DNA of 64,000 bases from Cyathus striatus (taxonomy: Eukaryota; Basidiomycota; Agaricomycetes; Agaricales; Nidulariaceae). The stretch spans positions 6,448,001 through 6,512,000 of the forward strand of contig JAOVFP010000002.1 in assembly GCA_025738555.1 (NCBI GenBank), written 5' to 3'. This document shows positions 9,374 through 57,359 of this stretch, one piece after another. Position 1 is the first letter of the stretch. Every line of letters starts with the position of its first letter. Below the pieces are notes generated by a model that had not been told where the DNA came from, did not search any database, and saw nothing but the letters and a program-made list of their open reading frames with translations. A program made the translations under genes and the position numbers.

Positions 9374-11068
9374 GCACTGCTCCATGAGATCAGGTGGACT
9401 TCAGGTAGAGTCCAGGTAAAATCCTGGACTCCAGGTGGACTTCAGGTGGACTCTACTGGACTCTACTGTACTAAGTAGTTTAGACATTACCTGGGGTTTA
9501 CCTGGACTCCAGCTGGATTCTACCTGAACTCTACCTGTACTAAGTAGTTGAGACATTACCTGAGGTTTACCTGGACTCCAGCTGGACCATACCTGGACTC
9601 TACCTGTACTAAGTAGTTGAGATATTACCTGGAGTTTACCTGAACTCCAGCTGGACTCTACCTGGACTCTACTGTACAAAGTAGCTTAAACATTACCTGG
9701 GGTTTACCTGGACTCCAGCTGGACTCTACCTGAACTCTACCTGTACTAAGTAGTTGAGACATTACCTGAGGTTTACCTGGACTCCAGCTGGACCATACCT
9801 GGACTCTACCTGTACTAAGTAGTTGAGATATTACCTGGAGTTTACCTGAACTCCAGCTGGACTCTACCTGGACTCTACTGTACAAAGTAGCTTAAACATT
9901 ACCTGGGGTTTACCTGGACTCCAGCTGGACTCTACCTGAACTCTACCTGTACTAAGTAGTTGAGACATTACCTGGGGTTTACCTGGACTCCAGCTGGACT
10001 CTACCTGGACTCTACCTGAACTCTACCTGTACTAAGTAGTTTAGACATTACCTGGGGTTCACCTGGACTCCAGCTGGATTCTACCTGAACTCTACCTGTA
10101 CTAAGTAGTTGAGACATTACCTGGGGTTCACCTAGACTCTACCTGTACTAAGTAGTTGAAACATTACCTGAAGTTCACCTGGACTCTACCTGAACTCCAC
10201 TGAACTCAAGTGCCTAAGCTGTACCTAGACTCTATTGTTACAGTTGTAACATGTTTCCTACAGTTATCAAACCATGTGTGAAAGTGTGACATGTTGGAAA
10301 ATGCTGAAAAGCGTGACAAGCGTGGGAAGAAGTGTGACATATCATATCCACGCTTTTTCAGCATTTCCAAACATGTCGCACTTTTCCCCATGCTTGTCAC
10401 ACACGTCACACATTTCCCATGTTTGTCACGCTTTTCAGCATTTTCCGACATGTCACGCTTTTTCCAACGCGTCACACTTTTCCCACGCTTGTCACGCATG
10501 TCACACATTTCAAACATTTTCCAACACATCACACTTTCACACATGGTTTGATACCTGTAGGAAACATGTTACAACTGTAACAATAGAGTTTAGGTACAGC
10601 TTAGGCACTTGAGTTCAGTGGAGTCCAGGTAGAGTTCAGGTGAACTCCAGGTAATGTTTCAACTACTTAGTATAGGTAGAATTCAGGTAGAGTCCAGGTA
10701 TAGTCCAGCTGGAGTCCAGGTAGAGTTCAGGTAGAATCCAGCTGGAGTTCAGGTGAACCCCAGGTAATGTCTAAACTACTTAGTACAGGTAAAGTCTAGG
10801 TAGAGTTCAGGTGAACTCCAGGTAGAGTCTATCTGAAGCCCAGTTGACTAAGTCCAGTGGACTCCAGGTGTATTCCAGTTATTTCTGGACTCTACCTGAA
10901 CTTTACCTGGAGTCCAGCTGGAGTCTATCTAAATTCTACAATTTTTCTATATAAAGTTCAGATAGAGTCCAGGTAGAGTCCAGTAAAGTCCAGGTGGACT
11001 TCAGGTGGACTTCAGGTGGAATACCTGGACTCCAGGTGGACTCCACCTGATTCCATGGAGCAGTGTAA
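9374..11068. mobile_element. Foldback element 1: large palindrome made of CTGGACTC-type tandem repeats
   Basis: The left end CACTGCTCCATG (with GATCAGGTGGA following) reappears inverted as TCCACCTGA...CATGGAGCAGTG at about 11,044-11,068. Between them the left arm is a tandem array of phrases such as GTACTAAGTAGTTGAGACAT, TTACCTGGACTCCAGCTGGA and CTCTACCTGAACTCTACCTG. The right arm (about 10,560-11,060) is the same array in the opposite orientation. The centre (about 10,265-10,545) is itself palindromic and consists of TGTCACAC/TTTCCAACATG motifs. No transposase is encoded. I did not find a convincing target-site duplication. Foldback elements of this type are mobilised in trans by DNA transposases; that is inference here. 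Confidence 0.7.
9536..9950. repeat. Higher-order tandem repeat, two units of about 207 bp
   Basis: Inside the left arm of foldback element 1, a 207-bp block made of three diverged sub-repeats (marked by TAGTTGAGACATT, TAGTTGAGATATT and AAGTAGCTTAAACATT) occurs twice in a row almost unchanged, the second copy starting near 9,743. This shows recent tandem duplication within an older array. Confidence 0.75.
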
Positions 11069-11183
11069 TGACCTCTTGAAAACTAAGGTACTCAACTGCA
11101 AGTCTAATCTATGAGTAAGGCTGTTAACCATGTGTGCATAGCCACTATGCTACTCAGTCTTTTGGAGAACTTGTCAATGAGCC

Positions 11184-12540
11184 ACATGTTTCAACTGACT
11201 ATCAGAGAGTCAGTTGAGAGTCAGTTGATAGTATCAGAGAGTAAATTGATAGTAAGATGAGACTTAGTTGAGAGTCAGGTGAGAGTCAGGTGAGAGTTTT
11301 GAGAGTCAGATGAGAGTCAGTTGATAGTCAGATTATAATTACATACAAAATAGAGTAATTGCTAGTCTCACCTTACTGTCACCTTACTATTAGCTTACTC
11401 TTATTCAATCTGGTATCAGATAGTAATCTGAGAGTTGATTGATACAATTTCACCTGACTATCATCTGACTATCAATTAAATTTGTATGAGTTATTGGTGT
11501 AAAATAGACTCCATATAGATTCCACCTGATCACTATAGTTTCCCACAGTTATAACACTTACCTAGACTATAGTTTCCTACAGTCATTACACATGTCACAA
11601 TGTGTGACATGTGTGACATGTTGAAAAAAGTGGACATTCTGAATGACACACTAGGACAAGTGTGCACAGTCATCACACTTACCTAGACTATAGTTTACTA
11701 CAGTCCTCACACATGTCACAATGTGTGACATGTGTGACATGTTGGAAAAGCGTGACATGTTCAAAAAAGCGTGATATATCGGAAAACAAGTGTGACATGT
11801 TGGAAAGCGTGACATGTATGACACGCTGTCACAGTATCATAGCCATCACACTTATCACACTTTTCATGTATTGTCACGCTTGTCACGCTTGTTCCAACCA
11901 TGTCACACTTTTTCCAGTATATCACATAGTGACTTGTGTGACATGTTGAATAGATATGTCACACAAGTCACGCTTTTCCAACATGTTACAAGTCACACTT
12001 TTCCCAGCATGTCACGCTTTTGGGAAAAGTGTGACTTGTGTGATACAACTCCATGTGTGACATGTTGGAAAATATTGGGAAAAGTGTGACATTGAAAAAT
12101 GTTGGAAAAAGTGTGACATGTGTGACAAGTGTGGGAAAAGTGTGACATATTGGAAAAAGTGTGGCAAGTGTGATGGTTATGATATGTGACAGTTTTCCAA
12201 CATGTCACATTTTCCCCACGCTTGTCACACATGTCACACTTTTTCCAACATTTTTCAATATGTCACGCTTTTTCCAACATGTCACATATGGAGTTAGGTG
12301 AGAGTCAGGTAAGAGTCAGGTAAGAATCCAAGCTAAGCCCAATACTAATTTCAGGTCACAACTGACTCTCAACTGACTCTAATGAGACTCTCAGTTGACT
12401 CTTGAGACTCAGTTGAGAGTCAAATGACAGTCAGATGAGAGTCTAACCTGACTTCTGAGACTTAGTTGAGAGTCAGATGAGAGTCAGGTGAGACTATCGA
12501 TACTTATATGAGAGTCAGTTGATAGTCAGTTGAGACATGT
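11184..12540. mobile_element. Foldback element 2: GAGAGTCAGTTGAT array outside, GTGACATGTTGG array inside
   Basis: The left end ACATGTTTCAACTGACTATC at 11,184 matches the inverted right end GATAGTCAGTTGAGACATGT finishing at 12,540. The outer arms are repeats of GAGAGTCAGTTGAGAGTCAG. The inner 11.58-12.29 kb is an array of GTGACATGTTGGAAAA/TTTTCCAACATGTCAC motifs in both orientations, the same motif as the centre of foldback element 1. No transposase frame is present. The immediate flanks do not show a duplication I can defend. Confidence 0.65.
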
Positions 12541-35990: not shown

Positions 35991-35999
35991 GTGACAAGC
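35991..35999 (+). repeat. 9-bp target-site duplication GTGACAAGC (copy A left flank)
   Basis: Its partner is not at the other end of copy A. It lies, inverted, at 48,977-48,985 beside copy B. Confidence 0.9.
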
Positions 36000-37499
36000 G
36001 GGCACGTAGTTTTTACCGTGCACGCACAAAAGTGAGTGTGACTGAGTGTGCCACGCTCAAGGCCAAATTTTCATGCTCAATGGGTGAGCGTGTCACGCTC
36101 AAGATATATTTAATAGTTGTAAATAGCCTATTTCTAAGTCAAACTAACCGTAAATCAAGTGTACATACTGGTACTATACTATTGTAGTCTTATTGTCACC
36201 GCAGGTAAAGTTTTTAAGCAAGATAAATACTCAGAAGTAGAAGAATAAAAATTAAATTTCACGCTCAAGGTGATATTATTCACGCTCAAACTTGAACGTG
36301 CACGCTCATTTTTCACGCTCAAGGTGTGAGCGTGCACACTCATATCACGCTCAAGATTTTATTTCACGCACAGGGTCAAGCATTCACGCTCAGGGTCGAA
36401 ATTTCACGCACAGGGTCTGAATTTTCACGCTCAAGGTATGTTACTTCACGCTCAAGGTCTTGAATTCACGCTCACATTCAAACTCATGTGAGCGTGAATA
36501 TAAGTAATATAATATTAAATATACATACCCACACTCAAGTTACAGTAAATACTATGCCTGAGCGTGAGTATGTATTTACTTCACACTCACGCTCAAAATC
36601 ATTTTAATTGAGAGTGAGTGTGATAGGCACTCAGTCCAATTAACTCAACCATAAATTTCAATATAATACTTATGCTCTTTCACGCTCACTTTTAAACTCG
36701 ATTAACTTGAGCGTGAACTTAAGTATAATATTTATGGACACTATTTACACCCAATTTATAGGATATGCGTGAGCATGAATAGCAATGCCTATCACACTCA
36801 TGCTCTAACTCAATTAAATTGAGAGTGTGCCTGAATGTAAATATTATATTTGCACTCGCTCCCAAGATATAGGACATAAGCATGTGCGTGAATAGGGAGA
36901 TCTACCACTGTGATCACACTCAAGTCAAAGGAGATACGTATGAGTGTGAAGCAGTAAATAGAATGCATCAGTGTAAATAGGAATCCCCATTACGCTCACA
37001 CTCAGTACTTCACGCTCACTGTCAAATTCCTTTAAGTTGAGAGTGAGCTCTAAAAACATGCATGAGCGTGAATAGTATTATCACGCTCATGCGCAAACTC
37101 TATTCTATCGAGTAGGTATGTGAATATAACATTCACACACAAGTTATACTAATAAATATGCGTGAGCGTAATACCTATTCACACTCACGCTCAAACTCAA
37201 GTAAATCAATACATCACGCTCACGCAATCAATATCATTCAATCCTGCCAGTTGTCAGTAATTTATGACCTATTTGAGTATATATGCTTTTCAGGTAGACC
37301 ATATGCATGCAGTAGTACAGTGTGTATTTATAATAGTAGTAGATTTATGACAACTTATTGCTTCACGCTCACTTACATATTGCCTCATGCTCACATATAG
37401 AATATTCACGCTCAGGGTTAAATTTCCATGCGCAGACCCTGAGCGTGCACGCTCAACTCACGCTCACACTTGAACGTGCACGGAATTTTCTCCCTGCCC
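36000..37499 (+). mobile_element. Repeat element copy A, 1.5 kb, dense TCACGCTCA/TGAGCGTGA array, non-autonomous MULE-like
   Basis: The element begins GGGCACGTAGTTTTTACC(GTGCACG) and ends (CGTGCACGG)AATTTTCTCCCTGCCC, so the termini are imperfect inverted repeats of about 25 bp (GGGCA...CGTGCACG). It is flanked by 9-bp sequences that are duplicated at the sister copy. A 9-bp duplication is typical of Mutator-like (MULE) transposases; the family assignment is inference. The interior is packed with the motif TCACGCTCA and its reverse complement in many near-identical versions, separated by AT-rich spacers, and encodes nothing recognisable. It keeps many CpGs although the DNA to its left has almost none, so it inserted recently relative to its neighbours. 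Copy B at 48,986-50,486 is nearly identical. Confidence 0.9.
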
Positions 37500-37508
37500 C
37501 CATTTGGA
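37500..37508 (+). repeat. 9-bp target-site duplication CCATTTGGA (copy A right flank)
   Basis: Its partner is at 50,487-50,495 (inverted), on the outer side of copy B. Confidence 0.9.
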
Positions 37509-37608
37509 AGATTTGAAAACACCCTTTGGAATTGAACACGGCAAGTACTGTCGGTCAGTTACACTGTACTTAAACCCTACTCATACTTGAAGGAATTTAG
37601 ATTCGCAT

Positions 37609-39657
37609 ATGGGTATGACATCAGTGCTTGACTTACAGGCTCTAGTCGATGCATTACTTCAGCCCTTTACCCCAGTTTCTTTCTCGTTTCTAAACTCCCC
37701 TGATGCATGGATGAGGACTTACCGCGATCAACTTGAAACTACTGCGACAGGAATCTTACCAATCGAAGAGCTAGAACATATCTCTTCTCAACTTTATCCG
37801 GTACGAGTTTGAAGCGGCTCACTTCGAGAGTGTAGCTGAAAACTATCGTGTTTAGAGATGCACGTTATACGTGCTAGCCTATGCTAAGAGTTACGGACAC
37901 ATTGGAGCGTAAATATATCTTCCATTATTTGGTTTAAGAGCTAAAGATTTCATCAGTGTGCAAGATCTTAAAGAAAAGATACGCATATGGGGGAAGCTTG
38001 AAGTCTTAACGCAATTTATCGAGTCTCAGGCAATCCTTGAATCACTTCGTGCATCTTTATTAAATTATGGACAACTCGAAAGTGTAAAGTATCGCTATGC
38101 TTAATTATAAAACGCTAACGTAATTTGCATAGCAGGGAATGCATATACTAGATATGATTTTACGTTTTGATATTCTATTCATTACGGCAAGGGTTCTTGT
38201 GTGGTTGAGCGATAATGAACACCGGCTTGCATGCAGCTCAGAAACAGGCGAAAGGGTGCAGGCCTTACTTGATTTGTTCCAGTCGGTTAGTTTGTTAATC
38301 TTCCTCCTATGGATTTGAACTGAGATTTTATTACTTGCAAGCTACTTGACTGTCATCCCCAAGGGTCATCAAGGGCAAAGCTTTTGGATGCAACATTTCG
38401 ACTCTCTAAGGAGTCTGGACGTGTTCCTTCGTGCTTTATTCTTGATAAATTGGATATAGATGACGGTGGGATTGCGCTTGGGGGTGGAGGATATAGCGAT
38501 ATATGGGGAGGTAGGATTGGAACAAATCGTGTAGCTATCAAGTCAATGCGCAACTTCAATGCGCAACGCTTTGATGATGCCATTAAGGTATTCTCCGTTT
38601 AATGTCAGTCGGTTAAACCTTTCTCACCATACCAACAGTCTTTTGCTCGAGAGGCCGTCCTATGGAGACAGTTTAATCATCCAAATATCTTACCCTTTTA
38701 TGGCGTTCACCTTTGGCAGCGGGAGCCACAACCTCTTGTTTGTCTTGTCTCGCCCTGGATGGAAAACGGAAATATTTTGGAACACTTACAGAAGCCAGAA
38801 TGTAAAGACAGACTTTCACTGGTGGGTTGCACAACGGAGCAGTATAACCTTTATCCTATTCACCAGTTTACATTTGTAGATGCTAGATGTTGCTCGTGGA
38901 ATCGAATATTTACACAACTTTCAGCCTCCAGTAATTCATGGAAATTTAACAGGAGTATGCGTTCCTCTGAACTAACTTTCAGATGGTGTATTAACTTGCT
39001 ACCGTAGAACAATATTCTTATAACACCTTCTGGAGGAGCCTGTATAGCGGACTTCTCACTCTGCACATTTACGCGGGATCATGAATTCCAAATGAGTAAT
39101 CGGAATTCAACCGGAGCCATCGGAGCAGTGCTGCAATGTGCTCCCGAGCTATTCTCGAGGAGTTCTGATAGCATTACTCAAGAGGTAGGTGGTACGGTGC
39201 CTGGGCCCTTAAAATCGAAGGAAGCCGATGCATACGCGTTTGGTTGCTTGTGTTTCGAGGTAAGATATAGAATTTATCTATTAGTGTCCTATATTCATAA
39301 ATACTACGACAGATATTTACCGGGAGGCCACGTTTCTCTCAGATACCGCTTTATTTCGCCATATTTGCTATTACCAAAGATCGTCCTGTTCCTCAGCCAA
39401 CCAGCATTGACCATTCGCTCTGGGAACTTATCCAGATATGTTGGAAAAGGAGTCCCAGAGACAGGCCCACGATAACTGACATCGTTCTAACGCTTTCTTC
39501 GATCGTCAATGGCGGAAGCGATGGAAATGTTCGTGAATGTGTGTTCAAATGGGACCAGCAAGTGATACACCAACTGAACTCACCATGGGCGACTTTAGTA
39601 ACACCGTTCGGGTTTGAACAGAGCAAGTATTGGTCACCTTTATACTGCGCCATTTGA
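37609..39657 (+). CDS. Protein kinase-like protein, probable pseudokinase
   Basis: A multi-exon plus-strand gene; exon joins are by eye. An N-terminal part starting at the ATG of 37,609 (MGMTSVLDLQALVDALLQPF) is followed after introns by a kinase domain. That domain has a glycine loop GGGGYSDIWGG and ATP-binding lysine VAIK (about 38,480-38,541), the alpha-C region FAREAVLWRQFNHPNILPFYG (38,642-38,705), and CLVSPWMENGNILEHL. The catalytic loop reads VIHGNLTG (HGN at 38,937-38,945). After an intron comes NNILI, then IADFSL in place of DFG (39,050-39,058). APE-like CAPELF, the F-helix region ADAYAFGCLCFE and the C-lobe IQICWKRSPRDRPTITDI complete it. The stop is at 39,657. The family resembles TKL-type kinases expanded in Agaricomycetes. 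Loss of the catalytic Asp (HGN for HGD) and of the DFG glycine suggests it does not phosphorylate and may bind ATP or act as a scaffold. The GTPase gene begins 29 bp downstream. Confidence 0.75.
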
Positions 39658-39686
39658 CTTAACTATTTTTAGATTCACACAAGAAC

Positions 39687-40712
39687 ATGACATCAGTGTC
39701 TGTGTTACTTTCAGAGGAAGACATAACAACAGTTAGTCGTAGAGACATCATCATCGCGTGAGTTCTGTTTATGTGATATATTACCGTCAACTGATTTCCA
39801 TGTAGCTTAATGGGACCTTCGGGTGTCGGCAAAAGCTCGGTTAGTTACACTCCCTATCTCTGGCATATTTTAATTAATGCGTCAATTTTGTAGTTCATCA
39901 ACGTGGTGTTAGGTCATAATGTTGCCATCGTAGGCCATTCAATGGATTCATGCACGCAAGATGTTCGCGCCTATGGTTGCCTTCATCCCGATGGTAGTGG
40001 ACGAAAAGTCATTATGATCGACACGCCTGGGTACGATGATAGCGAACGAACAGATCACGAAGTTCTAAAAGATACTGCGAATTGGCTCGCTGACACGTGA
40101 GTTACACGATGCTTCACAAACGATCTACCTTATACTGTGCTTAGGTACAGGCAAGACATTGTTCTTACAGGAATCCTTCATCTTCACAGTATTGCCGAGC
40201 CGCGAATGCGTGGTACTCCTCGAAAAAACCTCGATGTATTTCGACAGTTATGCGGGAAAGATGCATTAAAAAATGTTATATTCGTGACAACGTACTGGGA
40301 TAAAGTGCCATCACGCATTGCCGAAATGCGAGAGTCCCAGCTGAAGTCCAAGTTCTGGGGTCAGATGATAGAGCATGGCTGCCGGATCAACCGGTTTTAT
40401 CCTCCTACGATGGAGACAGCGTGGAGTCTGGTGTCCTCGTTTGATAATAACGCACAGCGACCAGCGTTGACTATCCAGACGGAGATAGTAATTCAGAAAA
40501 AGAAGCTGCATCAAACATCTGCATTCAGAGCACTTGTTGAATGGTGGAGCAAGAAACTGCAGAGTCTTCGTGGTAGATTTGAGAACAATAAATGTCCTAG
40601 CGGTAAGGGACTGGCTCGGGCAGAGGAAGGGGTGGAGAGGGTGGCGTCGGGTAGTTCTACGAGGAGATCTCGTATTGAGAAGTACGTCTTCTTATTGAAT
40701 CCAAAACAGTAA
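39687..40712 (+). CDS. P-loop GTPase of the AIG1/septin-like G-domain class
   Basis: I can join four exons with GT-AG introns and an intact frame: 39,687-39,757, 39,806-39,839, 39,894-40,096 and 40,145-40,712. The product has the Walker A/G1 motif MGPSGVGKSSF, with an intron splitting it just after the second Ser. It also has G3 as IDTPGYDD (about 40,017-40,041), then LADTYRQDIVLTGILHLHSI, RKNLDVFRQLCG, VIFVTTYWDKVP at the G4 position, and a basic C-terminal tail. Such GTPases bind and hydrolyse GTP and often act at membranes or in defence-like responses; the fungal members are poorly characterised. Its paralogue is the N-terminal domain encoded at 63.57-62.5 kb, which has the intron in the same place after GKST. 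The start ATG is preceded by a splice-acceptor-like TATTTTTAG, so an exon upstream is possible. Confidence 0.85.
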
Positions 40713-41391
40713 CTAAACTGCAGTGCCATTGCTTCTAGGGGCTACTAGAATTTGACGTTGCCCCGTAATTTGATGCTGCCGTGATGTTACCAGTGATTAT
40801 CCTGCAGCAACCTCATGGCAATGTCACGGAAGCATGAGGGGTGGCTGTGGTCGAAGTCGATGGATGAGGCATAGGAGGGAGCAATAACTACTCCTATAAG
40901 CTGAGATTTATGTTGATTGATGATTGCTGACATTGTTAAGTTGAGAATAAGAGTTGAAAATAAGATAGTGAAGATTCCTTTTAATTAATAAAGGAATAGG
41001 GCCAGCAAGCAGCAGAGCCCACTACCTCCTCATTTAACTAACATTCACCATTAGAAATACAATTTATTACTGAGAAAATTATATTAGGAGAGAACAGCTA
41101 ATAAAAACATTAATAATTGTAGTGATAGATGTAATGAATTTGAAGTTCTGGCACCATCCAATAATGAGATGTATTACATGGTGTACTCTACAAATACTTC
41201 ATTAAGCTTGAGGGTAACATTAGCTTACAATAATAGAGAAATGAGGTGAGAGGAGAATCAGAAATGAACATCAATTGTGCAGGACAGGGCAGGGTGGTGA
41301 ATGAGCCATGTTTTGCAGCCCCTTCACTCAGTGTCAAAAGGGTTAATATTAGCCAGTGCAACTTTGAGATAGAGTTGAGGAGAGTGGTGGT
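40713..41391. other. Junction from gene territory to transposon territory
   Basis: CpG frequency falls sharply after about 40,880. No gene is supported. A phrase shared with about 3,130 (GCAGAGCCCACTACCTC) lies near 41,000. Confidence 0.4.
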
Positions 41392-42541
41392 CAAGGGTGC
41401 TCACGGATCGGAAAAATTGACCTAGGGTCCAATTTTTTGAAATCACCTTGTCGCTTCAACTAACTAACTAACATAGCTTACTAAGCGGTAAATATTTTCT
41501 AATTAGGAATGCGATGATCATCTTGGACATCTGACTCGACTACCTCTGTGTACGCTTACACCCTCTACTTTGACCTTCTCCACTACACGCGGGCCCATTA
41601 GCAACACATTCATGGTGGTACTACTAGTACATAACAGGTTATGTTAGTAAGTCTGCTGCTTAAATTTAATAAACCATTGCTAATGTATGGCAAAATTGGA
41701 TTTCACATCCAATGTACTTGCATTTGACTGCATCAGTAGCCAACTCATCAATAACATGGCTACATTTACTCAAAGATGTTACCATCCCACTTCTGTCATG
41801 TACAATCCCCTCACCATCTCTTGGTACATTGTGATCTGTTGTCTGTTCATTTTCATAGGCTAGAACCTGTGGTGTTCCTTGAATAGAGATTTCTATCTCT
41901 AATATCAGTATAGGCCCTTCAATATAGATGCCAACGCCTCTCCCTGTCACATATTCATTGCCATGAACTTGTTCTTCCTTAGCCCTGTCCATCCCCCTTT
42001 CTCTGTTGACAACCACTTGGTTTTCCTCACTTGTGGGCCCATGTAACAACATTATTTCAATCTCTGAACTATAGGTTGTGTAAGTTCAGGAATGAACACT
42101 AATATATGATTACATATTTCATACCCCAACACTACCTGCACATGGTGAGCTCCTGATATTCTGAACACCAGCTTGAACTTTCTTGCTAGCCTAACATCCC
42201 CAATGGAGCCCTCCACCCATATTCCCTGCACCCCTCATGCCCTGATCCTGTAACTCCCCATAGTTAGACTATGTAATAGGATAGACATTACACTAGCATT
42301 ATGTGTAATCACTATCTAACACACTCTAGATCATGTATATTGGTCACAGATTGAGCATACAGCACTACCTATTATATATGTATGGATAGCAAACAAAAAT
42401 ATGTAAGTATGGGTACTTTAAATGTTGTATAAAATGACCTCTGAGGCCTCTGTATGGGGGGTTCCATTTATTTTTTTCTGGCCTTCGGACAGGACTAACT
42501 AACCAACTACCCATGGGAAACTAGGATCCGTGCACCCCTTT
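41392..42541. mobile_element. hAT-like TIR element, 1,150 bp, 8-bp target duplication
   Basis: The left end CAAGGGTGCTCACGGATC (41,392) pairs with the inverted right end GATCCGTGCACCCCTTT (ending 42,541). Both ends also share an internal TAACTAAC block (41,463-41,475 and, inverted, 42,494-42,505). GTGGTGGT precedes the element (41,384-41,391) and follows it (42,542-42,549), an 8-bp duplication as left by hAT transposases, although the GT-rich context makes it less decisive. The minus-strand frame 42,052-41,666 is not a recognisable transposase. Confidence 0.7.
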
Positions 42542-42544
42542 GTG

Positions 42545-44955
42545 GTGGTGTTACAATCCAAGCTGGTCTTGTGATATTCTGATAACGTGGTGTCTTGGTA
42601 GGACCCTTGAAATCTCCACCAAAGGTTTGATACAAAAATTGCTATTTTTTGCTCAGAATGGGGGGACAAAAATTGTAAAATTTTTTGTGAATTGTAGGGG
42701 GATAGTGTATCTAGGTAACAAATTTTTGTGTTTATAGGGGGACATAGTATCTAACCTCCAAAGTCAGCCAAAATTGGTTTTCATCTTTTGTATTAGCATT
42801 AGAGTGTTTTTGGTGCATCGCTAAACATTTTGCAGCACTCAAAGAAAGCTCTTTTTGCTCTGAAATACCTATGTATGTCTGAGTAAACATTCCACTGCAC
42901 ATCCCAACAACAGAGTCACCTTGAGGCACGGGCTGAATAGAAGCAGGTGAAATTTCACAGAGAAATGAGGTAGCTGGAATGTGAACAAATTGTGGAAGAC
43001 CTAGTATGGCTGTGGGACCAAAAACCCCATGAAAGCAATGATGGCCAGGCCTTAATTGTTGCCACACTTGCATTCCAATGTAGGAAATAGCACTGATATT
43101 AGCTGAAGACAGGACCCAGTTATGCTTCCCACCCTTTCCAGCACCTTTCTCATACATTGTAATAACTGCACAAGATGTAAGTGGCAATACTTGAATTAGA
43201 ACATGCACATGCTTTTCCCAAGTAGTAATTGGTCTTTTGAAATGACTATTCCATAAGATTGATTGCTCAGTGGTACCAAAATGCTAATCTGAGCCATTTC
43301 AAAAAGTTCAGAGGGCGAGAGGGACAGAATATTCGTGTTGCCATCATTTAAGAATTTGAATAGCACCTGCTTCAGCTGCAAGTCATGCATTCACAGTATT
43401 ACCTGATTCAACCTTCCCCTTGTTCATATCACCACTGACATCCTAGGCTGACTTCATAAGGTGTTGAACCTTGTAGTTCAAACCGGTGCTGGAGCCCTGT
43501 AATTGTTCATGCTCATGTAGTACTTGTCAGATCTTCAGAGCAATTACAAGTGCTGGTGACTGATGTTCCCAGCGAGAGCATAAAGCTGATTGATACATGC
43601 CATAGGTGGGGCTGGCAGTTGTAGAAGTAAAGGGTGCATTGATACCTAAACAAAGAAATTAGTAAGTGAGTCAGTGAACATCCATTTGACCTTGAGGTGT
43701 TCTAAGGTGTCGAGAAAGGGGGATAATGTTCCACTGGATTGGGAGGGAGTAGTTACATGATATTTAAAGAAAACTAAAATAAAGAGAGTACTTAATAAGG
43801 AATAGTTGAATAAGGCGGAAATTAATGGTGATGGGATTGTGGATTGTTGAAAGAAAAAGGAAAAGTTTGAAACATAAAGCATACCAATGAACTGAAAGAA
43901 ATTTATAAAATAGAAACTTGAGGAGAGGGACGACATGGACACTGGTAAGGTAAACTGCAGTATTTAGTGGAGCTTGGTAGTGCACAGTACCAATGATCTT
44001 GAGTAATTGCAGCATTGTGGGCAATGCAGGAGTGTTGGCATTGAAGGGAAATGAGAGAGAGAGAATGTGCACGAATGCAAACAAACATGTTGACACATGC
44101 ATCACTTGATTATGTAATGGAAATTGTAATATGTTGATTTTTGTAGTGCAGGTGAAATGCCTGCTCTACACAGTGTATATAGAACAGTAATTGAGTGGGT
44201 AGGTGCATCATGCAGGAACCTTTCAGCTGCTGGCTTGAGATAAAAGGCATCAGATACAGGCTCTAAAGATAAATGAACAAGCTCTATAGGCATGATTGTC
44301 AATGTAGGAATCAGAATTGAACTTGAAGTGCTGGAGAGTCCTGTCTGTTGGATAAGCTCATCCAAGACAGTATCTGGTACATTTTTGTAGACTCATCCAG
44401 ATCCAATCCAATTTGTGAGTATTTCCCTTGTTTCAAAAGACATTATAGTAAACCTATCCTATCATGAATTAGAACAGTTAGAAAAGCATATATCAAAATG
44501 AGATTATAAAGCAAAATAAATACACTTTAAATGCTGGAAAAGAAGCTTTATACAAGGCTAAAATGTGCAATGAAAATGTTCATTGCTGGTACACTACTTA
44601 TATGCAAATTTCAGTATGGATAATAAAGAGATAGTCTTGAATACAAAGCAAAGCAGTGCAGCAGTAAGTAGTGAGGTGCACATAGAGCTATGTAATATTG
44701 ATGCGAAAAAGGATGAGGCTGTGCTGTAGATAGTGGACAGGTATCATACCTACTCCTCAGGCCAGCACTATAGGGGGATGCTAAACATGACATCATGCAA
44801 ATATTTATAGTTCCAGTAGGGGGATGCCTGCCAAAGTGTATCTGACCTCAGAGATTTTTCTGGCCAGAGTAGGGGGATCCATATCAAACCTTTGGTGGAG
44901 ATTTCAAGGGTCCTGTCTTGGTCTGATGATATTGTAATCATGTGACTTGTCACTA
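42545..44955. mobile_element. Probable TIR element with unrecognised minus-strand coding remnants
   Basis: TAGGACCCTTGAAATCTCCA plus CCAAAGGTTTGATA at 42,597-42,632 is repeated inverted at about 44,879-44,914, with looser similarity outside it. AGGGGGAT motifs recur just inside both ends. Between them are minus-strand frames 44,365-44,102, 43,390-43,196 and 43,208-42,732. The last has WVLSSANISAISYIGMQVW and GLPQFVHIPATSFL, which look like real protein but belong to no family I can name. It could be an unclassified DNA transposon. Exact ends and duplication are not defined. Confidence 0.5.
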
Positions 44956-46622
44956 CACTTGTAAGTCATATGATGAAGTCAAAGTCTAAACAGTTGTATG
45001 TCTTGTACACACTAATGGACTTGGCAGTGTTCTCACAGTAACACTTGAGAAGCAAATAGAAGTAGTGGTGTTCTGAGTCTGAGGTGATAGAAAGGAGTAG
45101 CCAGCTATATTGGATGATAGCTAAACTAAGATCAAGCTGAAGAAGCTTGATTGGAATACATGAGCTATTTATACAAAAGAAGCATGGTCTGTTTGCAGAA
45201 GGCTATGCTATTTATAAATAGAGTCTGTGACTTGCCATGACTTGGCAGAGATCTAAGAGAAGATGAAACACATACATAAATAGATAAAACATATCAGTAA
45301 GCAAAGTCTGTGCCAGTAGTATGACAAACCAGGGTGGCAGGTATTGGCAAGGGGTAAGGGGTCAGGGGTAAGGGATGATGAAGGTGAAACATGTATCAGT
45401 ACTATAAATAGATGGTCATGTGAAAAGAAAGGGGTTTGGCAGGGTTGAGAAGGGAAAAGTGTAACAGGTGGGAGCACTGGAATGCTGCAAGTGAATACTG
45501 TGATTGTGAACATCAATGGTGGGAATGACATAAGATGAAGATGATGCACCAGATACTGGGATTCTGATGTATTATTTGTTGTAATTACTGATATGGCCTG
45601 ATGTATACCTTGATTCCTCCATGCAATGGAGGCAGGAATGTGCCCTTGAGCTCAAACTTTAAGGTATATCCTAATGCTTCTAAAAACATCATCCTATATC
45701 TCTCTGTTAATTTTTATTATAATTCATTGTCATTCTTTCTAGGGGTAATTAGAGTTCTCATCATCTATTATCCCCATTGTTGTATGCATGTAAGTATATT
45801 TTATGGTCTGAAAGTGTAACAATCAATGTAAAAAAAAAACACAATGGTTAGATATTTTAATAATAGAGAACTTGAATGATACTGTATATTCATATGAAAA
45901 ACATTGACAATGTCAAGATTTATACCCTAGCATGTTATATAGTTTAAGGTCCCAGAAGCACTGCAAAGATATTTTGTAATATTCTCACACTGGAAACTGT
46001 GGCATTAGCACTGTGCTGGGATCACTGCAACATGAGGAGGTTTAAGAATTGCAAAACACTGCATTTGAGAGCATTTCTCCTGAAGTTTAACATTAAATAT
46101 TATATTTTGTATGAATGTAATATGCAGTAGATCTTGTTAATACTTATATAATTTCCTCCTAATACTATTAAAGTTTCAGTCTGACAAAAATATTGAACTT
46201 TTGTGAACTTGATCTAAACTCCAGTATGGCCTTGTTATACCAAGTGTATGTAATATTCATTTGCATAATATTTAAACTACTTATATATGATATTACCAGT
46301 TGCCTATAAAACTCTTCACTTGAACCACATGTCAGAGTTTCTGTTTCCAACTGGATATGTTTTAAACTAATAACAATTACTTAAAAGTACCAATTTCATT
46401 AAAAATATATCAAACTGCACATATTTTGCAAAACAATTCAAAGTAATACATGACCCAATCATTTATGGCAGGTTTAACAAGAAAACAAATGTAATTTCAC
46501 CAAAGTATGTATACACCAATGTGCAGGTAGAAGCAGTCAATTGCAATTCAATTGGCAACCTGATATGGTAAGTAATAAGTACCACAGCATTAATTATGCA
46601 GGCAATATTGTTGAAAAGATGC
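44956..46622. other. AT-rich CpG-poor stretch without recognised genes
   Basis: Only short frames. 45,150-45,230 has repeats of CTATTTATAnAA. Nothing further is supported. Confidence 0.35.
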
Positions 46623-48976
46623 TACAGTTGAACCCTTCTTATCTCATAACTCATAAGTTTTTTGGTCCACCAACTCAGTTCACAGAGATTTGCAGACCAT
46701 AACATATAAAGCTCATAATCCATAAGTCATACAATTTTACGCAGGAAACCCCATATTATTACATAAGCATAGTAGGGTTTATTCATTCTATCTATAGTTT
46801 CCTTCAGCCAAATTTTGTATTTACCAACTCTCCACTCACCCTAACATGCCACTCATTGAATCAATAGCTAGACTATGAGTTTTAAAATGCCACTGGGTGA
46901 AATGAGACTCAGGGAAAGAGACTGTAGGTGAAAATTGAAATTCAGGACACCTTTCTTTCAATGTTGTGCACACAGTGCACTGCCATCATGCCTCTCAAAC
47001 CCATTGCAGTTCTTAAGAAAGGCCTTTCCAAGTTTATGAAGTCTATTACTGCATGCAGAGATCTTCTCACTGCAAAGTTGTGCTGAAAGGAAACCATATC
47101 ATCATCAAATGAATACTGGCTGGATCATGAAGCAAACACAGTTGATGAGCAATGTGTTCTTGAAACTCTGGAGTCATCATCAGACTATGAGAGAGGGCTT
47201 GAATGTTTAGATAACCAGGAAAGGGCAATTGTAATGAAATTGAAGGAGTGGAGTGGTGAAGTACTCAAAGTTGCTAGAAACAAGTGTAAACATATGTGAC
47301 TCTCATTTCATAATGAAAGGATACACTTACCTATTGTAATTCACAAAGGTCCTGCAAATAATGTTCATAAACCTTAAATAAGAAAGGAGGCTCATCCTCT
47401 TCTACTCCTGTCATTACAAAGACAACAAAAGAGAATGCTTCATTGGCACAGAGGATTGAAATCCTTGACTGGCATCACAAGAATGGTAAATAACAGACTG
47501 ACATGGCTCAACACTTTGACAAGATTTATCTGAACCTCCAAACCAAACAGCCACTGATTTTGCTCTGGCTGAAGCACAATGCAAAATGGCAAGCACAATG
47601 GGAAGAGGCTAACTGCTCTAGCAATTGAATAACCAAATGAGTACAACAGACTCAGCATTCAAAAGTATCAGAGATGATGTACATATAGGTCTCAAAAGCT
47701 ATGATGAATGGGATTCTGCTGTGTGGGGAGGTTCTTCATAATAAGTGGAACCAATTTGCTACATTGGTTGGTGTTCTCAAGGACAGCAGACTGAATCCCA
47801 GTAATGATTGGATAGCACACTTTAAGGATAGGAATGGCTTGAAGGAGATGAGGTGACATGGGGAAGCAGCTTCAGCAAATGCTGAAACTGTGGAATGAGA
47901 ATAGAAAAGGGTGCAAGAATTGATACAAGAGAGTGGATACCAGCTGCATGATATTTTCAATATGGATGAAACCAGGCTTTTTTATGTGTACATACATGCC
48001 AGGCCCTGCTGTGGATATGTTATCTAACCTGTTTCTTTAGAATGGTACCAGATAGAGGTCTGACAGACATAAAACAAGCAGGAGTAAAAGGCAGAAAAGT
48101 CTGGTTGACATACACACTCACATCCAATGCTGATGGCTCTGAAAAACTCCCACCTTTCATTATAGGAAAGGCTGATCACCCTCAAGCTTTCAAGAAAAAA
48201 ACTGGTGAACAACTTGGCTTTTACTGTCACAATAATGTGAAAGCATGGATGACTGCCAAACTGTATCAGGAGTGGATTCAGCAATGAGATAACAGCCTTC
48301 ACTGAGAAGATCAAAACATACTTCTCCTTCAGGATAATTTCTCTGGTCACATTGTTCCCAATGGTCTTCAAAGGATTTGAGTTGAAAACTTTGAGCCCAA
48401 CCTTACCATGCATGTTCAGCCAAAAGACAAAGGAATTATCAGGTGCTTCAAGGCTCACTATTGTGCTAGGTTCATTCAGCAATTAGTTGATTGTTATGAT
48501 GAGGGTATTACCCCTTCCAATATTTATGACCTCAACCAGCTGCAGGCTATGCAAATAGCAGATGAAGCATGATATGATGTAAACACAACTACCATTCAGA
48601 ATTGCTGGCATAAGGCAGGTATCTTACCTGAAATGAATGCAACCTTGTTATCTGTGCCCCAACCATCAATCCCAGTTTCATTCCTAATTCATGATGCTTC
48701 ATTCCAGATGGATTCAGTCTCTCATGCAGAAAGGCTTGTTGAAAATGCACTTGGTGTACTTGTTGCTACAGGTGCATTGCAGACAAGCAACCAAATGACA
48801 GTTGAGTCTCTGTTGAACTCCAAAGGCAAATCACATGCTTTGACAGAAACATCAGACAATGAAATCTATCAAGCTGTCATGAAATCAATTGCTGCTCATC
48901 AGAAGCTAGAGGTAAATGGGGGTGATGATGTGGACCAGGATATTCAGGTGGAGCCTCATCCAATCTGGCACAATGT
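46623..48976 (+). pseudogene. pogo/Tigger-type transposase remnant (5' TIR, CENP-B HTH, DDE domain)
   Basis: A pogo-type terminal repeat CAGTTGAACCCTTCTTATCT starts at 46,625 directly after a TA. The plus strand then encodes a CENP-B-like DNA-binding region (LAQRIEILDWHHKNG...QTDMAQHFDKIYLNLQTKQPL, about 47,445-47,560), and a DDE domain with FNMDETRLF (about 47,960), WLTYTLTSNADGSEKLPPFI (48,093-48,160), LLLQDNFSGHIVPN (about 48,320-48,362) and VQPKDKGIIRCFKAHY (about 48,414-48,461). The three catalytic acidic positions are therefore visible, but stops and frame changes break the gene. The frame is cut at 48,977 by the duplication flanking copy B, and the 3' TIR is not found here. In the order before the inversion it would continue leftward from 35,990. 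Confidence 0.8.
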
Positions 48977-48985
48977 GCTTGTCAC
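48977..48985 (-). repeat. 9-bp target-site duplication (complement GTGACAAGC)
   Basis: Matches 35,991-35,999 exactly in inverted orientation. Confidence 0.9.
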
Positions 48986-50486
48986 GGGCAGGGAGAAAAT
49001 TCCGTGCACGTTCAAGTGTGAGCGTGAGTTGAGCGTGCACGCTCAGGGTCTGCGCATGGAAATTTAACCCTGAGCGTGAATATTCTATATGTGAGCATGA
49101 GGCAATATGTAAGTGAGCGTGAAGCAATAAGTTGTCATAAATCTACTACTATTATAAATACACACTGTACTACTGCATGCATATGGTCTACCTGAAAAGC
49201 ATATATACTCAAATAGGTCATAAATTACTGACAACTGGCAGGATTGAATGATATTGATTGCGTGAGCGTGATGTATTGATTTACTTGAGTTTGAGCGTGA
49301 GTGTGAATAGGTATTACGCTCACGCATATTTATTAGTATAACTTGTGTGTGAATGTTATATTCACATACCTACTCGATAGAATAGAGTTTGCGCATGAGC
49401 GTGATAATACTATTCACGCTCATGCATGTTTTTAGAGCTCACTCTCAACTTAAAGGAATTTGACAGTGAGCGTGAAGTACTGAGTGTGAGCGTAATGGGG
49501 ATTCCTATTTACACTGATGCATTCTATTTACTGCTTCACACTCATACGTATCTCCTTTGACTTGAGTGTGATCACAGTGGTAGATCTCCCTATTCACGCA
49601 CATGCTTATGTCCTATATCTTGGGAGCGAGTGCAAATATAATATTTACATTCAGGCACACTCTCAATTTAATTGAGTTAGAGCATGAGTGTGATAGGCAT
49701 TGCTATTCATGCTCACGCATATCCTATAAATTGGGTGTAAATAGTGTCCATAAATATTATACTTTAAGTTCACGCTCAAGTTAATCGAGTTTAAAAGTGA
49801 GCGTGAAAGAGCATAAGTATTATATTGAAATTTATGGTTGAGTTAATTGGACTGAGTGCCTATCACACTCACTCTCAATTAAAATGATTTTGAGCGTGAG
49901 TGTGAAGTAAATACATACTCACGCTCAGGCATAGTATTTACTGTAACTTGAGTGTGGGTATGTATATTTAATATTATATTACTTATATTCACGCTCACAT
50001 GAGTTTGAATGTGAGCGTGAATTCAAGACCTTGAGCGTGAAGTAACATACCTTGAGCGTGAAAATTCAGACCCTGTGCGTGAAATTTCGACCCTGAGCGT
50101 GAATGCTTGACCCTGTGCGTGAAATAAAATCTTGAGCGTGATATGAGTGTGCACGCTCACACCTTGAGCGTGAAAAATGAGCGTGCACGTTCAAGTTTGA
50201 GCGTGAATAATATCACCTTGAGCGTGAAATTTAATTTTTATTCTTCTACTTCTGAGTATTTATCTTGCTTAAAAACTTTACCTGCGGTGACAATAAGACT
50301 ACAATAGTATAGTACCAGTATGTACACTTGATTTACGGTTAGTTTGACTTAGAAATAGGCTATTTACAACTATTAAATATATCTTGAGCGTGACACGCTC
50401 ACCCATTGAGCATGAAAATTTGGCCTTGAGCGTGGCACGCTCAGTCACACTCACTTTTGTGCGTGCACGGTAAAAACTACGTGCCC
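48986..50486 (-). mobile_element. Repeat element copy B, inverted near-identical partner of 36,000-37,499
   Basis: The reverse complement starts GGGCACGTAGTTTTTACC and ends TTTTCTCCCTGCCC, is 1,501 bp long and follows copy A almost base for base. Near the end I see one difference (GAGCGTG here, GAGTGTG in A). The flanking 9-bp sequences are TCCAAATGG on the right and GCTTGTCAC on the left, the swapped partners of those at copy A. Interior and coding content are as for copy A. Confidence 0.9.
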
Positions 50487-50495
50487 TCCAAATGG
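50487..50495 (-). repeat. 9-bp target-site duplication (complement CCATTTGGA)
   Basis: Matches 37,500-37,508 exactly in inverted orientation. Confidence 0.9.
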
Positions 50496-50596
50496 GAGTC
50501 CAATGACTGCTCCCCTTCCGCAGAAATGTTGATGGATTTTGGCTCTAGCACGCATGTTCGGGTGTCTGCACGCATACGTGTTTAGTTCGTTGTGGT

Positions 50597-52042
50597 CTAA
50601 GGTATAATTATACCTTCATAATAGCGCACTGCGTACTGCTCTTGGATGGTTTCACGAAGTTGCTCCACGTCCCAGTCGCTCTTTCACCGGGTCGTCAGCT
50701 TCTGCAAAATACAACTCAAAGATTTCCCGTCCTAACCTTTCTGATGAGCTCACACCATACATTGTCATGTGTGATGGCAATACTGGCATCGGGAACCTAC
50801 CAAACATGGCAGTTAATTACTCAATAAAAATAATGCTTCTTACCTCAGACAGTAGCATATTATTAATTATACTTAAAGGATGTAATGGCTACATGGGACA
50901 AATGTAAATTGAAACTAATATAGAGAAAAACCACTCACATTGTTTATTACTGGAAAATGAGTAATTCTCATATTATTACCGCAGTCTTGACGAGACGAAG
51001 ACTGTGCTCCACACTCATTGCCAATATTACTCTTCGATCCCTTACCATTTACTTGCTCATGTGATGTTTTGGGAGAAGATGATTTCCCCCCTCCTTTATT
51101 CGTGGTCACTACACTGGTAAGATCCCATAGCTCATCCCATGTCTCCTCCGACAGTGCAATTTTGAAACCACGCAAGAACAAGCATTGATTGCCAGTGTTA
51201 TCTTGTATTTCATTTCCTGAGACGAAATCTGGATCCGGCAAGGGGCCGGATCTACAAGATGAAGCTCCTCCGGATCGCTTCCAAATGTAGGATGGTTTAT
51301 CTATGTCGCCCGATTTTCCTATCACCAGTACACTGTTACGGTTTTGTACGGATGTATCGAAGGTTGCAATTCCCCAGGTTTTGGACTTCATACACCCGGT
51401 AATGAAGTATAAGGAGTGACGATCCAGGTCACGGCCACAGTTATCCCGTGCATATCTATACCAGTTCAGCGCATGTTTAATGATGAATTGTTTCCAGTGC
51501 CATTCATTAGCCATGTCTATCTCAGAAGCTCCATGGGGCAAAGAGAGAATCGCTCCTGCATCTCCATCTTTACAACTGAAGGAAATGTCCCTATCAACAG
51601 ATTTAACACTATCGTATCAGCTTTCACAGCAACGATTAAGATGACTATTAATAACGCACTTCGTATTCATGTCTAAATCCGATTCTATATGCAGACTTGA
51701 GATTTTGCTGTCGCCAGGGTCAGCCGAAGTCTGAGATGCTGTATGAAGGATTGGCAAGGAGACAGAATTGAATTCGTTCGGAAGGCAAGCTGGAAGATTT
51801 ATGGGATGTTGTGCCGGTAACAAAACATTGAACAAAAAGTCGAAGCCACCGTTGCGTGTAATAACCCCGACATCTCCAATAGAAACACCCTTACGGCGGT
51901 ATTCAACAGGCAGGCCTCTGGCTGGTTGAGGAAAGCACAGGGGATAGCCATTCTTAAGCGGAAGCATTTTTTCAATGTAGATTTCACTGCTGACGGGAGC
52001 TGTCTTGAAAAGGGCTCGGGCCTCTAATGGAAGAGACCCCAT
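50597..52042 (-). CDS. Hypothetical protein of an Agaricomycete family (SIGDVGVIT motif)
   Basis: A minus-strand gene of at least four exons. Exon 1 begins at the ATG of 52,042 (MGSLPLEARALF) and holds LPVEYRRKGVSIGDVGVIT and GGFDFLFNVLLPAQHPIN. After an intron (acceptor TTCAG near 51,595) come CKDGDAGAILSLPHGAS, NWYRYARDN, SLYFITGCMKSKTWGIATF and LFLRGFKIALSE. A GTGAGT donor follows near 50,939. After the acceptor TTTGGTAG comes DASIAITHDNVWCEL, then a short last exon ending at the stop 50,597-50,599. I know proteins with this motif order as widespread uncharacterised proteins in mushrooms, sometimes next to or fused with signalling domains; no biochemical role is established. Before the inversion its 3' end would have lain a few hundred bases from the end of the GTPase/kinase pair now at 37.6-40.7 kb, on the same strand. 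Confidence 0.75.
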
Positions 52043-52220
52043 TTCATAGTTTGGAAACTGGATTTCATCCTTTCAGCATAATGAGGTTATTAGATTACCC
52101 ATGGCCCTACCGAATCAACATTTGTTTCCATTCCCGCGGCTCCTCTCCCATATTTCACATTTGAGTTTACCTAAGTATTAAAGATGTGAACTTTGAAGTG
52201 CATCGTACTTTAGAGGGTAG

Positions 52221-52637
52221 CTATGAAGTATAGGGTACCTTTGTCAGAACAGATGATTCTGCTGTATCATGTTCCAGAAACCGATCACCACTGATTAAAT
52301 GTTGGTTTCTCACGGTATCGGTAGAGTTTGGTATTAAAGCAGGTATCGGCGCGGTGTTGGGTTGGTGTGATTCAGACCGTCGAAAGGAAGGAAATATCAT
52401 TGCAAAAACGTTAACAATTGCCTGAAGGAAATGAGGGTCCCGCTCCATATAGTTGATGCTTATATCAGTAAAAATGTTTGTATTGGCAGATACTTGACCA
52501 TTGCCTTCAGCAAATACGGAGGTACCTTTACCACTACTTTGCTGACGGTAATTAGAAGGGCCTGAGAAGTTGTGTCCTGAAAGAGTGTTAGCCCACTGAT
52601 CTGTCTCAGTAGTTGATATTGAAAACATATTTACCAT
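52221..52637 (-). CDS. Unrecognised open frame, possibly a 5' exon or separate small gene
   Basis: A 138-codon minus-strand frame (MVNMFSISTTETDQWANTLS) with polar, Asn/Ser/Thr-rich composition and a middle segment DPHFLQAIVNVFAMIFPSFRR. It lies in CpG-normal DNA upstream of the gene at 52,042 and on the same strand. I recognise no domain. It could belong to the same transcription unit, but no joining intron is obvious. Confidence 0.35.
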   Translation of the reverse strand: MVNMFSISTTETDQWANTLSGHNFSGPSNYRQQSSGKGTSVFAEGNGQVSANTNIFTDISINYMERDPHFLQAIVNVFAMIFPSFRRSESHQPNTAPIPALIPNSTDTVRNQHLISGDRFLEHDTAESSVLTKVPYTS

Positions 52638-53129
52638 CTTGGCGGTTATCGTAAGCTGTAGTAGTTGATAACATTAGCTTCCTATACCGCTTGGAAATTT
52701 CGAAAGATATTCACATCTATTGATAGACATATCTCTACCAGTGCTGTTTAGGTTTGCATTGTTAACTTCGACGGCGTGAGCACCCTCAAATATAGGCATT
52801 GGGCATCAAATGATGTATCGTGTGTCCTTCGATGTTTTATAAGCACAGCTCGCGGCGTCAATGTAGATATGATTTGCAAAGGCCTACACTATGGTTTTTG
52901 GTGTGGATGAGGTGTAACTGAACTGTAGCTGCGGGAAGCGGAACAAGGAAGATCGGACATTGGTCAGTCTTGCCACTGAAGATATACTTGTAGTGTTTCC
53001 ACGGTTCCCATGAAATTCCGATGCTTGGTGACACTTTGATAACCAAAATCAGAATTACGGCTATATCCAATATTACTACAACATGTATGAACATCCCGCT
53101 ATTATCGTATCATAATCTGAATAAGTAGT

Positions 53130-53786
53130 GGAAGGTAGTGCTGCCGCAGAGTGCAGTAAAGTGGTAGTGAAGTGAAGTTTTACGTACTGTGATACAGTGA
53201 TGGGCGATCCACTGTCAAGCGCTGTGACACTTCTGACACTGATGGCTCTGTGACATAGTCATAACACTATCACTGACAGTGTTTGACATTAAGGTGGAGA
53301 CTATGCCCTAATATATCCAACATATGCATGACCTCAGACTTCAAAGATACCGAACATAGAAATGAAAATCCATTTTAAAATGTAAATTATCTTTCACTGT
53401 CACTTGCTGACACCTTGACATGTTTGACACATCGATGCCAAGATTGCTGGAGTGTCAGCCTGACGGTGTTCGACACTGTCAAGAACATCACCGCTGTGAT
53501 ATGCTTCACAGTTGGCAGTGTGCTGTGAAGCACTGTGAAGTGACGGCGCACAGAAGGCGCTCTCTCTAAACTACTACTTTAGGAAATATAAGGGTCCCGT
53601 TACTTATCTAACTATTAAGGGACAGATTGAAGCGCCCTGGAGCGCTGACGAGCGGAAACGAACAAGTGCTTAACAATTCAGCACGGGGAACTTCATAGCG
53701 CTTCACAGGGACCGCGACACACTGTGCAGTGCAGTCACAGTCACTACACAGTACTGCACTGTTGCGCGGCAGCACTACTGCCTCCC
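53130..53786. mobile_element. Foldback element 3 rich in CACTGTCA/TGACAGTG motifs
   Basis: The left end GGAAGGTAGTGCTGCCGC (53,130) matches, inverted and with a 3-bp gap, GCGGCAGCACTACTGCCTCC ending near 53,786. The following AGTGCAGTA and GTAGTGA phrases pair as well. The interior is filled with short CACTGT, TGACAC and ACAGTG motifs in both orientations and encodes nothing. No target duplication was found. Confidence 0.55.
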
Positions 53787-56375: not shown

Positions 56376-57359
56376 TAGTCTCGCTTGCCATCCCCTCCCG
56401 ATTGGGACACATCCTAAAAAGGATTTCTCAACGTGAGGGTCTGGGCCACTTCAAAGGAAGAACGGGGGGGGTCGAACTTCGGTCAATTCCGAAGCCTTTG
56501 ATGGATTATATAAGCATCGTCGCGCGCTGAACTGACCGTTCCGAATGCGTATGCATTATCGTATTCTCGCGCATTCCACTCACGTAACGCTTAAACTTCA
56601 TATTTTATTCTTTATCATGAATACACACACTCCTTTGAACAGTAAACATGTCCTAAAGCGAAGGCTCCCCTCTAACTGGGATGAAAACACTACTGTTACC
56701 CCTCCTCGCTCCAAAGCAGCAAGATTAACAACTACTGGTGCACTCATTCCTCCCTTCACTCCCTCCCCCACTACACAATAGTGTATGGAGGAATATAGGA
56801 AGCGAGAAATGAGGAACACTTGAGATCCACTGTAGTGCAAGCCAGGTCTTGTGTTCTAATGTCATAGCTGGTTGGCATGCCTTTGAAGAGTCTGGCAGCA
56901 TAAATTCAAAGTCATCTTCTTCAAGATCATCAGGTTGATCTGACATTTCATTGAAATGTATTCCAATGATTTCATTGTCACTTGACAAAGGAGATTGGCC
57001 AGAGATAACTTCTGGAACTGGGCTAGAAGTATCATAAAGATCTTGAGCTGGAGAGCTTTCTATTGCAGATGATTCTTCAAAATCACTACTGAATTCCATT
57101 CCAGATGGCCATCGACGAGTATTGTAGCCATGCATAGTTCAGTAAAGCAGGTGGAGGGAAGTAAACATATGGATAAGATAGCGATGCGATACAAATGCGA
57201 TCGGTAAGGTGCCAACTGAGTGTTACATAATCCATCAAAAACTTCGGAGTTGACCGAAGTTCGACCCCCCCGTTCTTCCTTTGAAGTGGCCCAGACCCTC
57301 ACGTTGGGAAATCCTTTTTAGGATGTGTCCCAATCAGGAGGGGATGGCAAGCGAGACTA
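56376..57359. mobile_element. MULE-like TIR element in a GH16 exon, 984 bp, perfect 9-bp duplication
   Basis: Terminal inverted repeats of about 120 bp begin TAGTCTCGCTTGCCATCCCC and run through GGGACACATCC and AAAGGAAGAACGGGGGG to the TTCGGTCAA region with few mismatches. CTGATATAC stands at 56,367-56,375 and again at 57,360-57,368, a perfect 9-bp target duplication. Removing the element plus one duplication restores the GH16 reading frame (RPDIPDNIKN). The interior has a minus-strand acidic frame (57,135-56,725) and a short plus frame with KRRLPSNWDENTTVTPP, neither a known transposase. Non-autonomous. Confidence 0.88.

Follow-up and report, generated by a model that had tools for sequence, protein, structure and literature searches.

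The stretch analysed here, hereafter the window, comprises 64,000 nucleotides of the Cyathus striatus genome, is free of N and forms part of an 8.3-Mb contig (C2) in a 107-Mb, 24-contig assembly. It carries two near-identical transposable elements, copies A and B, arranged as inverted repeats with a spacing of 11,486 bp, and between them a predicted protein kinase, a possible GTPase-like protein and a decayed pogo-like transposon [Table 1]. The start codon and exon limits of the kinase are our own reading, which puts the predicted ATG some 110 bp away from where copy A ends. A paralog of this kinase (C2:6,529,723-6,531,100; 84% to window 37,632-38,999) is found on the other strand at a distance of about 44 kb, which puts it 17.7 kb past the end of the window. 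No domain match was obtained for the GTPase-like pieces between 40,101 and 40,709. On the outer side of copy B, the stretch at 50,487-53,133 includes a gene piece at 50.9-51.6 kb for which all five of the proteins found are from Cyathus striatus, the best being 79% identical over 63%, and for which tblastn gave no match in a plasmid collection. A further inverted repeat at window 56,376-57,359, whose arms of 95 nt (98%) and 49 nt (92%) are separated by roughly 0.7-0.8 kb, is possibly a separate small transposon.

Table 1. Features in and around the segment between copies A and B (positions in the window)
Feature	Position	Strand	Remarks
Half of target duplication 1, GTGACAAGC	35,991-35,999	+	Left flank of A
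Element copy A	36,000-37,499	+	1500 bp
Half of target duplication 2, CCATTTGGA	37,500-37,508	+	Right flank of A
Segment probably inverted	37,500-48,985	.	11,486 bp; between A and B
Stretch with a homologue directly contiguous with that of window 50,487 (-)	37,500-37,553	+	C2:7,218,485-7,218,538
Predicted protein kinase, pieces	37,609-39,654	+	PF07714 above cut-off at 38,603-38,959, below it at 39,008-39,472
Possible GTPase-like protein, pieces	39,894-40,709	+	Weak MMR_HSR1 match in 39,894-40,097, E 0.0015, below cut-off
Decayed pogo-like transposon	46,646-48,981	+	HTH_Tnp_Tc5 (PF03221) and DDE_1 (PF03184) matches in separate open pieces
Other half of target duplication 1, GTGACAAGC	48,977-48,985	-	Right flank of B, in the orientation of B
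Element copy B	48,986-50,486	-	1501 bp, opposite orientation to A
Other half of target duplication 2, CCATTTGGA	50,487-50,495	-	Left flank of B, in the orientation of B
Stretch homologous to a paralogous locus ending at C2:7,218,493	50,487-53,133	-	87.7% over 2,661 aligned columns; carries an unnamed gene

Copy A is bounded by imperfect terminal inverted repeats (GGGCACGTAG...TCCCTGCCC), and its interior holds numerous TGAGCGTGA/TCACGCTCA motifs without a long open frame. Scoring 40 of 441 candidates gave at least 143 matching pieces of this element family in the genome. Twenty-four of the 40 loci examined passed a filter for both ends and are considered complete; the 16 partial loci were excluded, among them L042, which has a perfect duplication yet failed the end filter. 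A 9-bp target duplication of their own flanks 12 of the 24 complete copies perfectly and one at eight of nine positions; the remaining 11 (A, B, L003, L004, L040, L041, L046, L058, L060, L061 and L062) have none. Target duplications of about 9 bp are typical of Mutator-like elements (MULEs), a class that the present element fits on the length of its duplication. The transposase search does not support assignment to this class: the MULE transposase domain PF10551 had no genome match at E 0.001 in a six-frame search that does not handle introns (two candidates scored). Membership of the Kyakuja/Dileera/Zisupton (KDZ) group, whose transposase domain has at least 159 matches in the genome, was likewise set aside in view of published duplications of 7 bp for Kyakuja and 8 bp for Zisupton and Dileera, against 9 bp here (PMC12730594, as far as the portion consulted goes). 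Identical scores among some of the KDZ-domain matches on contig C9 (and C23) may reflect recent duplication. No Pfam match above the cut-off was obtained with four open frames taken from larger members of the family, and none of the matches listed from the literature on families with 9-bp duplications was taken up as a candidate for the element. A stretch resembling the right end of the family (71%) is also found at C7:1,840,550-1,840,720, about 450 bp from an internally deleted pogo-like copy.

Aligned with each other, copies A and B show a single substitution, at window 36,047, where A has T and B has C, and a 1-bp indel that gives copy B an additional A base; outside the indel they are 99.93% identical. 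The earlier note on this DNA had given the positions and bases of both copies and their flanks, all of which proved correct when re-read from the window. It had also pointed out that neither copy has matching flanks of its own, in agreement with the placement of both among the 11 complete copies devoid of a duplication, and that the four flanks nevertheless form two perfect 9-bp pairs swapped between A and B, a pattern that we find to be base-exact at the element ends. It is the exact position of each 9-mer against an element end, not the uniqueness of the 9-mers, that gives the swapped flanks their weight: GTGACAAGC occurs seven times in the window (chance mean 0.61), five of them at 10.3-12.2 kb, and CCATTTGGA three times (chance mean 0.83; three or more occurrences in 3 of 100 shuffles). 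The five occurrences of GTGACAAGC fall in a repeat-rich tract at 10,300-12,230 that contains many GTGACA-type units. Each of the four A/B flanks has a single match at 100% in the assembly, so that there is no second haplotype to confuse the picture. Comparing the flanks of the 11 copies without a duplication of their own (220 comparisons) returned three exact 9-bp matches, two of which are those of A and B; in a control that drew 9-mers at random from the ends of these loci, one or more matches, of either kind, turned up in 20 of 2000 runs. The loci L040, L041, L046, L058, L060, L061 and L062 found no exact flank partner among the 11 such copies compared, nor did a search for a partner to one flank of L061 succeed; other rearrangements may be hidden at these loci.

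How A and B are related to each other was assessed in an alignment of seven full-length copies (A, B and L003-L007). L003-L007 are 98.5-98.9% identical to A outside gaps, and A and B are mutually the closest of the seven. Nine substitutions are common to A and B and absent from L003-L007, seven of them being CpG-to-TpG/CpA changes, and the two copies have since acquired one change each, a further substitution of the CpG-to-TpG/CpA type in A and the 1-bp indel in B. No additional member of the A/B sublineage was found among the matches scored. The nine shared changes imply that one copy descends from the other, that both arose in a single hybrid-element event, or that gene conversion homogenised them; probably the common source grew old at one site before giving rise to two copies, or else later gene conversion made the two alike. 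Of the history put forward in the earlier note, the inversion itself is upheld by the paralogous empty site and the CpG content described below, and the two independent insertions that it invoked are not supported, in view of the nine substitutions shared by A and B.

The CpG content of the DNA around the two copies changes abruptly at each of them. In 500-bp flanks, the counts of CpG and of TpG+CpA are 0 and 71 to the left of A, 19 and 59 to its right, 0 and 106 to the left of B, and 16 and 75 to its right. The present junctions accordingly join dissimilar DNA (Fisher p 1.6e-6 and 2.0e-6), whereas the restored junctions do not (p 1.0 and 0.34); with 1-kb flanks, the corresponding values are 1.4e-9 and 3.5e-13 for the present order and 0.089 and 0.44 for the restored one. 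That the CpG jumps at both copies vanish once the inversion is undone, as had been proposed, is therefore borne out by the Fisher tests, none of which is significant in the restored order. Within the segment, CpG content is gene-like at 37.5-41.0 kb and depleted, as in transposons, at 41.0-49.0 kb, and this one boundary, near 41.0 kb, would be left after undoing the inversion.

The junction formed by CCATTTGGA (junction 2) has a counterpart elsewhere on the same contig. Window 51,986-50,487 (minus strand) matches C2:7,216,992-7,218,493 at 89%, and window 37,500-37,553 matches C2:7,218,485-7,218,538 at 87% (E 4.3e-8); in the alignment of C2:7,216,992-7,218,538, the two matches overlap by a single CCATTTGGA and no element is present. 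The uninverted junction, in which 50,487 is joined to 37,500 through one copy of the target, is thus found intact in related sequence at a paralogous site. Since the paralog is continuous through CCATTTGGA, the DNA now outside B formerly adjoined the DNA now inside A. The homology stops 45 bp past the duplication, and the tract on the 37.5-kb side is accordingly short.

Junction 1, formed by GTGACAAGC, presents a more complicated picture. The pogo-like transposon that abuts it has copies on contigs C4, C11 and C7 that are 91-95% identical, and their homology to the window stops at 48,981, 4 bp inside target duplication 1. Beyond this break the pogo-like copies run on, sharing a tail of about 364 bp on C11, C4, C7 and C8 and to about 246 bp on C17; a sixth match (L024) departs from the alignment at a different point. 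The tail is absent beside 35,999, and BLAST found no match to it of at least 60 bases (E 1e-5) in the 64-kb window. With the break falling at this point within the duplication, GTGACAAGC must have carried an old truncation scar by the time it served as a target. A pre-existing truncation that happens to fall inside a 9-bp target is an awkward coincidence, which we count against the simplest account. The loss of the tail beside junction 1 nonetheless seems to be older than the event, because the shared duplication spans the scar. Genome-wide searches with the sequence on either side of junction 1, and a comparison of its predicted joined sequence with loci retrieved from the genome, found no homologue that crosses it, and no other partner was found for the flank at 48,985. 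We infer junction 1 from its duplication and the CpG content only, and it is less secure than junction 2.

The observations at the two junctions indicate that the 11,486-bp segment is very probably inverted. A coincidental match between two insertions whose own flanks had mutated or been deleted, with no rearrangement at all, might be entertained given that mismatched flanks are common in the family (11 of the 24 complete copies), but it would have to produce two perfect 9-bp matches at exactly the predicted positions, it runs against the CpG test, and it is refuted in effect by the empty paralog, which joins the homologues of 50,487 and 37,500 directly; we regard it as hardly credible. It is also improbable that on the true chromosome the copies have matching flanks and that the 1.5-kb inverted repeats led the assembler to reverse the unique sequence lying between them. 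Such an artefact would account for the restored order being the ancestral one at junction 2, but the gap-free window, the 8.3-Mb contig and the assembly in only 24 contigs suggest long reads able to cross 1.5 kb, and A and B have been resolved with their own private differences.

The account that we favour, at a probability of roughly 0.6, is that the segment was flipped by homologous recombination between A and B after the insertion of an inverted daughter copy nearby. A first copy would have entered CpG-decayed transposon DNA at GTGACAAGC, a choice of first site that is our guess from the CpG context, and this resident copy would then have gathered CpG-to-TpG changes over time. An inverted daughter would next have inserted at CCATTTGGA, 11.5 kb from its parent and about 110 bp ahead of the predicted start codon of the kinase, and crossing-over between parent and daughter would have flipped the DNA between them, leaving each copy with one half of each duplication. 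Ready recombination is to be expected between inverted repeats as long and as similar as these, which would make the swapped state likely once the pair existed and is the reason for which crossing-over is favoured here. The order of the insertions and the recombination step are what we infer. The recombination between the copies proposed in the earlier note thus remains the preferred step, yet copies with only two differences do not separate it from a hybrid-element insertion, in which, after replication, the left end of the element on one sister chromatid and the right end of its sister are inserted together into CCATTTGGA 11.5 kb away, so that a single step yields the swapped footprints along with the second copy and the inversion. 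The latter, a real possibility to which we nevertheless give less than even odds, predicts precisely this footprint pattern and copies that are identical at birth (PMC2775673, in the part consulted). Both features are in keeping with what is found here, and both are equally expected from a daughter copy followed by recombination. A hybrid-element insertion would further agree with A and B being each other's nearest copies and the sole members of their sublineage among the matches scored, and it needs only one prior insertion. Against it, the transposase must act on the ends of two elements, an event presumably rarer than crossing-over between 1.5-kb inverted repeats, and it does not predict the missing pogo-like tail beside junction 1 either. 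Chimeric copies, the expected mark of recombination, are not visible here because A and B differ at only two positions.

A second pair of copies bears on the same choice. L003 (C6:4,822,168-4,823,646) and L004 (C6:4,874,490-4,875,967) are in direct orientation 52 kb apart and are 99.86% identical, and their left 9-bp flanks, CAAATTTTC and GAAAATTTG, are mutual reverse complements. By our own derivation, such a pattern would be left by two left ends taking part in one transposition, not by simple crossing-over, and we count it in favour of a hybrid-element insertion. The right flank of L004 is homologous to C6:4,826,273-4,826,566 from the first base at the element end, while its left flank is not; so precise a start of the homology speaks for L004 being a breakpoint. 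On the other side of the ledger, the support that the pair lends to a hybrid-element insertion comes down to one AT-rich 9-mer, and homologous stretches recur in tandem in both flanks of L003, suggesting that these flanks may always have been neighbours. The excision joint predicted for the pair has four genome-wide matches, none of them near 4.8 Mb of C6 (control pattern, 0); a search for its empty site, allowing up to two mismatches, gave 11 matches against five for the control, one of them being L004 itself and the three best others sharing only about 19 bases; and no third partners were found for the two right flanks. L003/L004 hint at a product of aberrant transposition and are offered as a lead only. 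Carrying the idea further, one may speculate that this undescribed fungal family with 9-bp duplications pairs the ends of different copies, such that neighbouring DNA is flipped and reshuffled by individual aberrant transpositions instead of by recombination, with A/B and L003/L004 as outcomes and the 11 of 24 copies without a footprint of their own as a wider trace; we consider this unlikely.

Exchanged duplications at inversions made by transposons are well described in Drosophila (PMC2775673; PMC3355041), and the products of recombination and of hybrid-element insertion are strikingly alike, the copies being chimeric in the former and identical in the latter; chimeric copies are the mark of recombination used for Galileo (PMC2775673). 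The Galileo inversions of Drosophila buzzatii, 2z3 among them, resemble the present case, in the portion of that work consulted, in having two cut-and-paste copies in opposite orientation, one per breakpoint, with exchanged target duplications and a single copy of the target in the uninverted sequence (PMC2775673). The present case differs from them in being fungal, in its size (11.5 kb, not a chromosomal inversion), in its 9-bp instead of 7-bp duplication, in that the uninverted state is seen at a paralogous site and for one junction only, and in copies too similar for chimerism to show (PMC2775673). Inversions by alternative transposition are known in maize, and impala in Fusarium is cited as a fungal example of non-standard transposition (PMC8225341). 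The alternative (reversed-ends or sister-chromatid) transposition of maize Ac/Ds likewise places element copies at both breakpoints with ends from different copies; reversed-ends inversions, as far as the part of the source consulted describes them, leave one new duplication and lose the DNA between the donors, whereas both pairs are exchanged here and the left flank of A and the right flank of B share one duplication (PMC8225341). Transposon-linked variants of Marasmius oreades, which likely belongs to the same order (Agaricales), also involve rearrangement between nearby transposon copies; those reported in the portion consulted are 13 deletions and one element inversion with its middle lost, and swapped footprints are not the evidence there (PMC9674265). 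No fungal inversion argued from swapped duplications was recognised among the open-licence papers listed, as judged by titles, beginnings of abstracts and term counts. The type of event is therefore already known, and what is added here is a new case with unusually clear traces, whose internal proof is good for one of the two junctions.

Small inversions made by transposons are hard to prove from one genome. At this locus the exchanged footprints, the empty site at the paralog and the CpG boundary all agree, which provides a base-exact fungal case, and pairing up orphan target duplications offers a simple scan for further such inversions. Copies A and B are still 99.93% identical inverted repeats, and continued flipping of the segment between them would be expected, such that its orientation may differ between nuclei or strains. 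The flip would have taken the predicted kinase and the possible GTPase-like gene out of a gene-like setting and placed them at the margin of CpG-depleted transposon DNA. Neither of the sequences compared with its paralog has lost CpG in excess of it (23 vs 25 for 50,487-53,133; 20 vs 21 for the kinase at 37,632-39,700), and the kinase having undergone no extra decay makes this locus usable to ask how fast decay spreads into newly placed genes.
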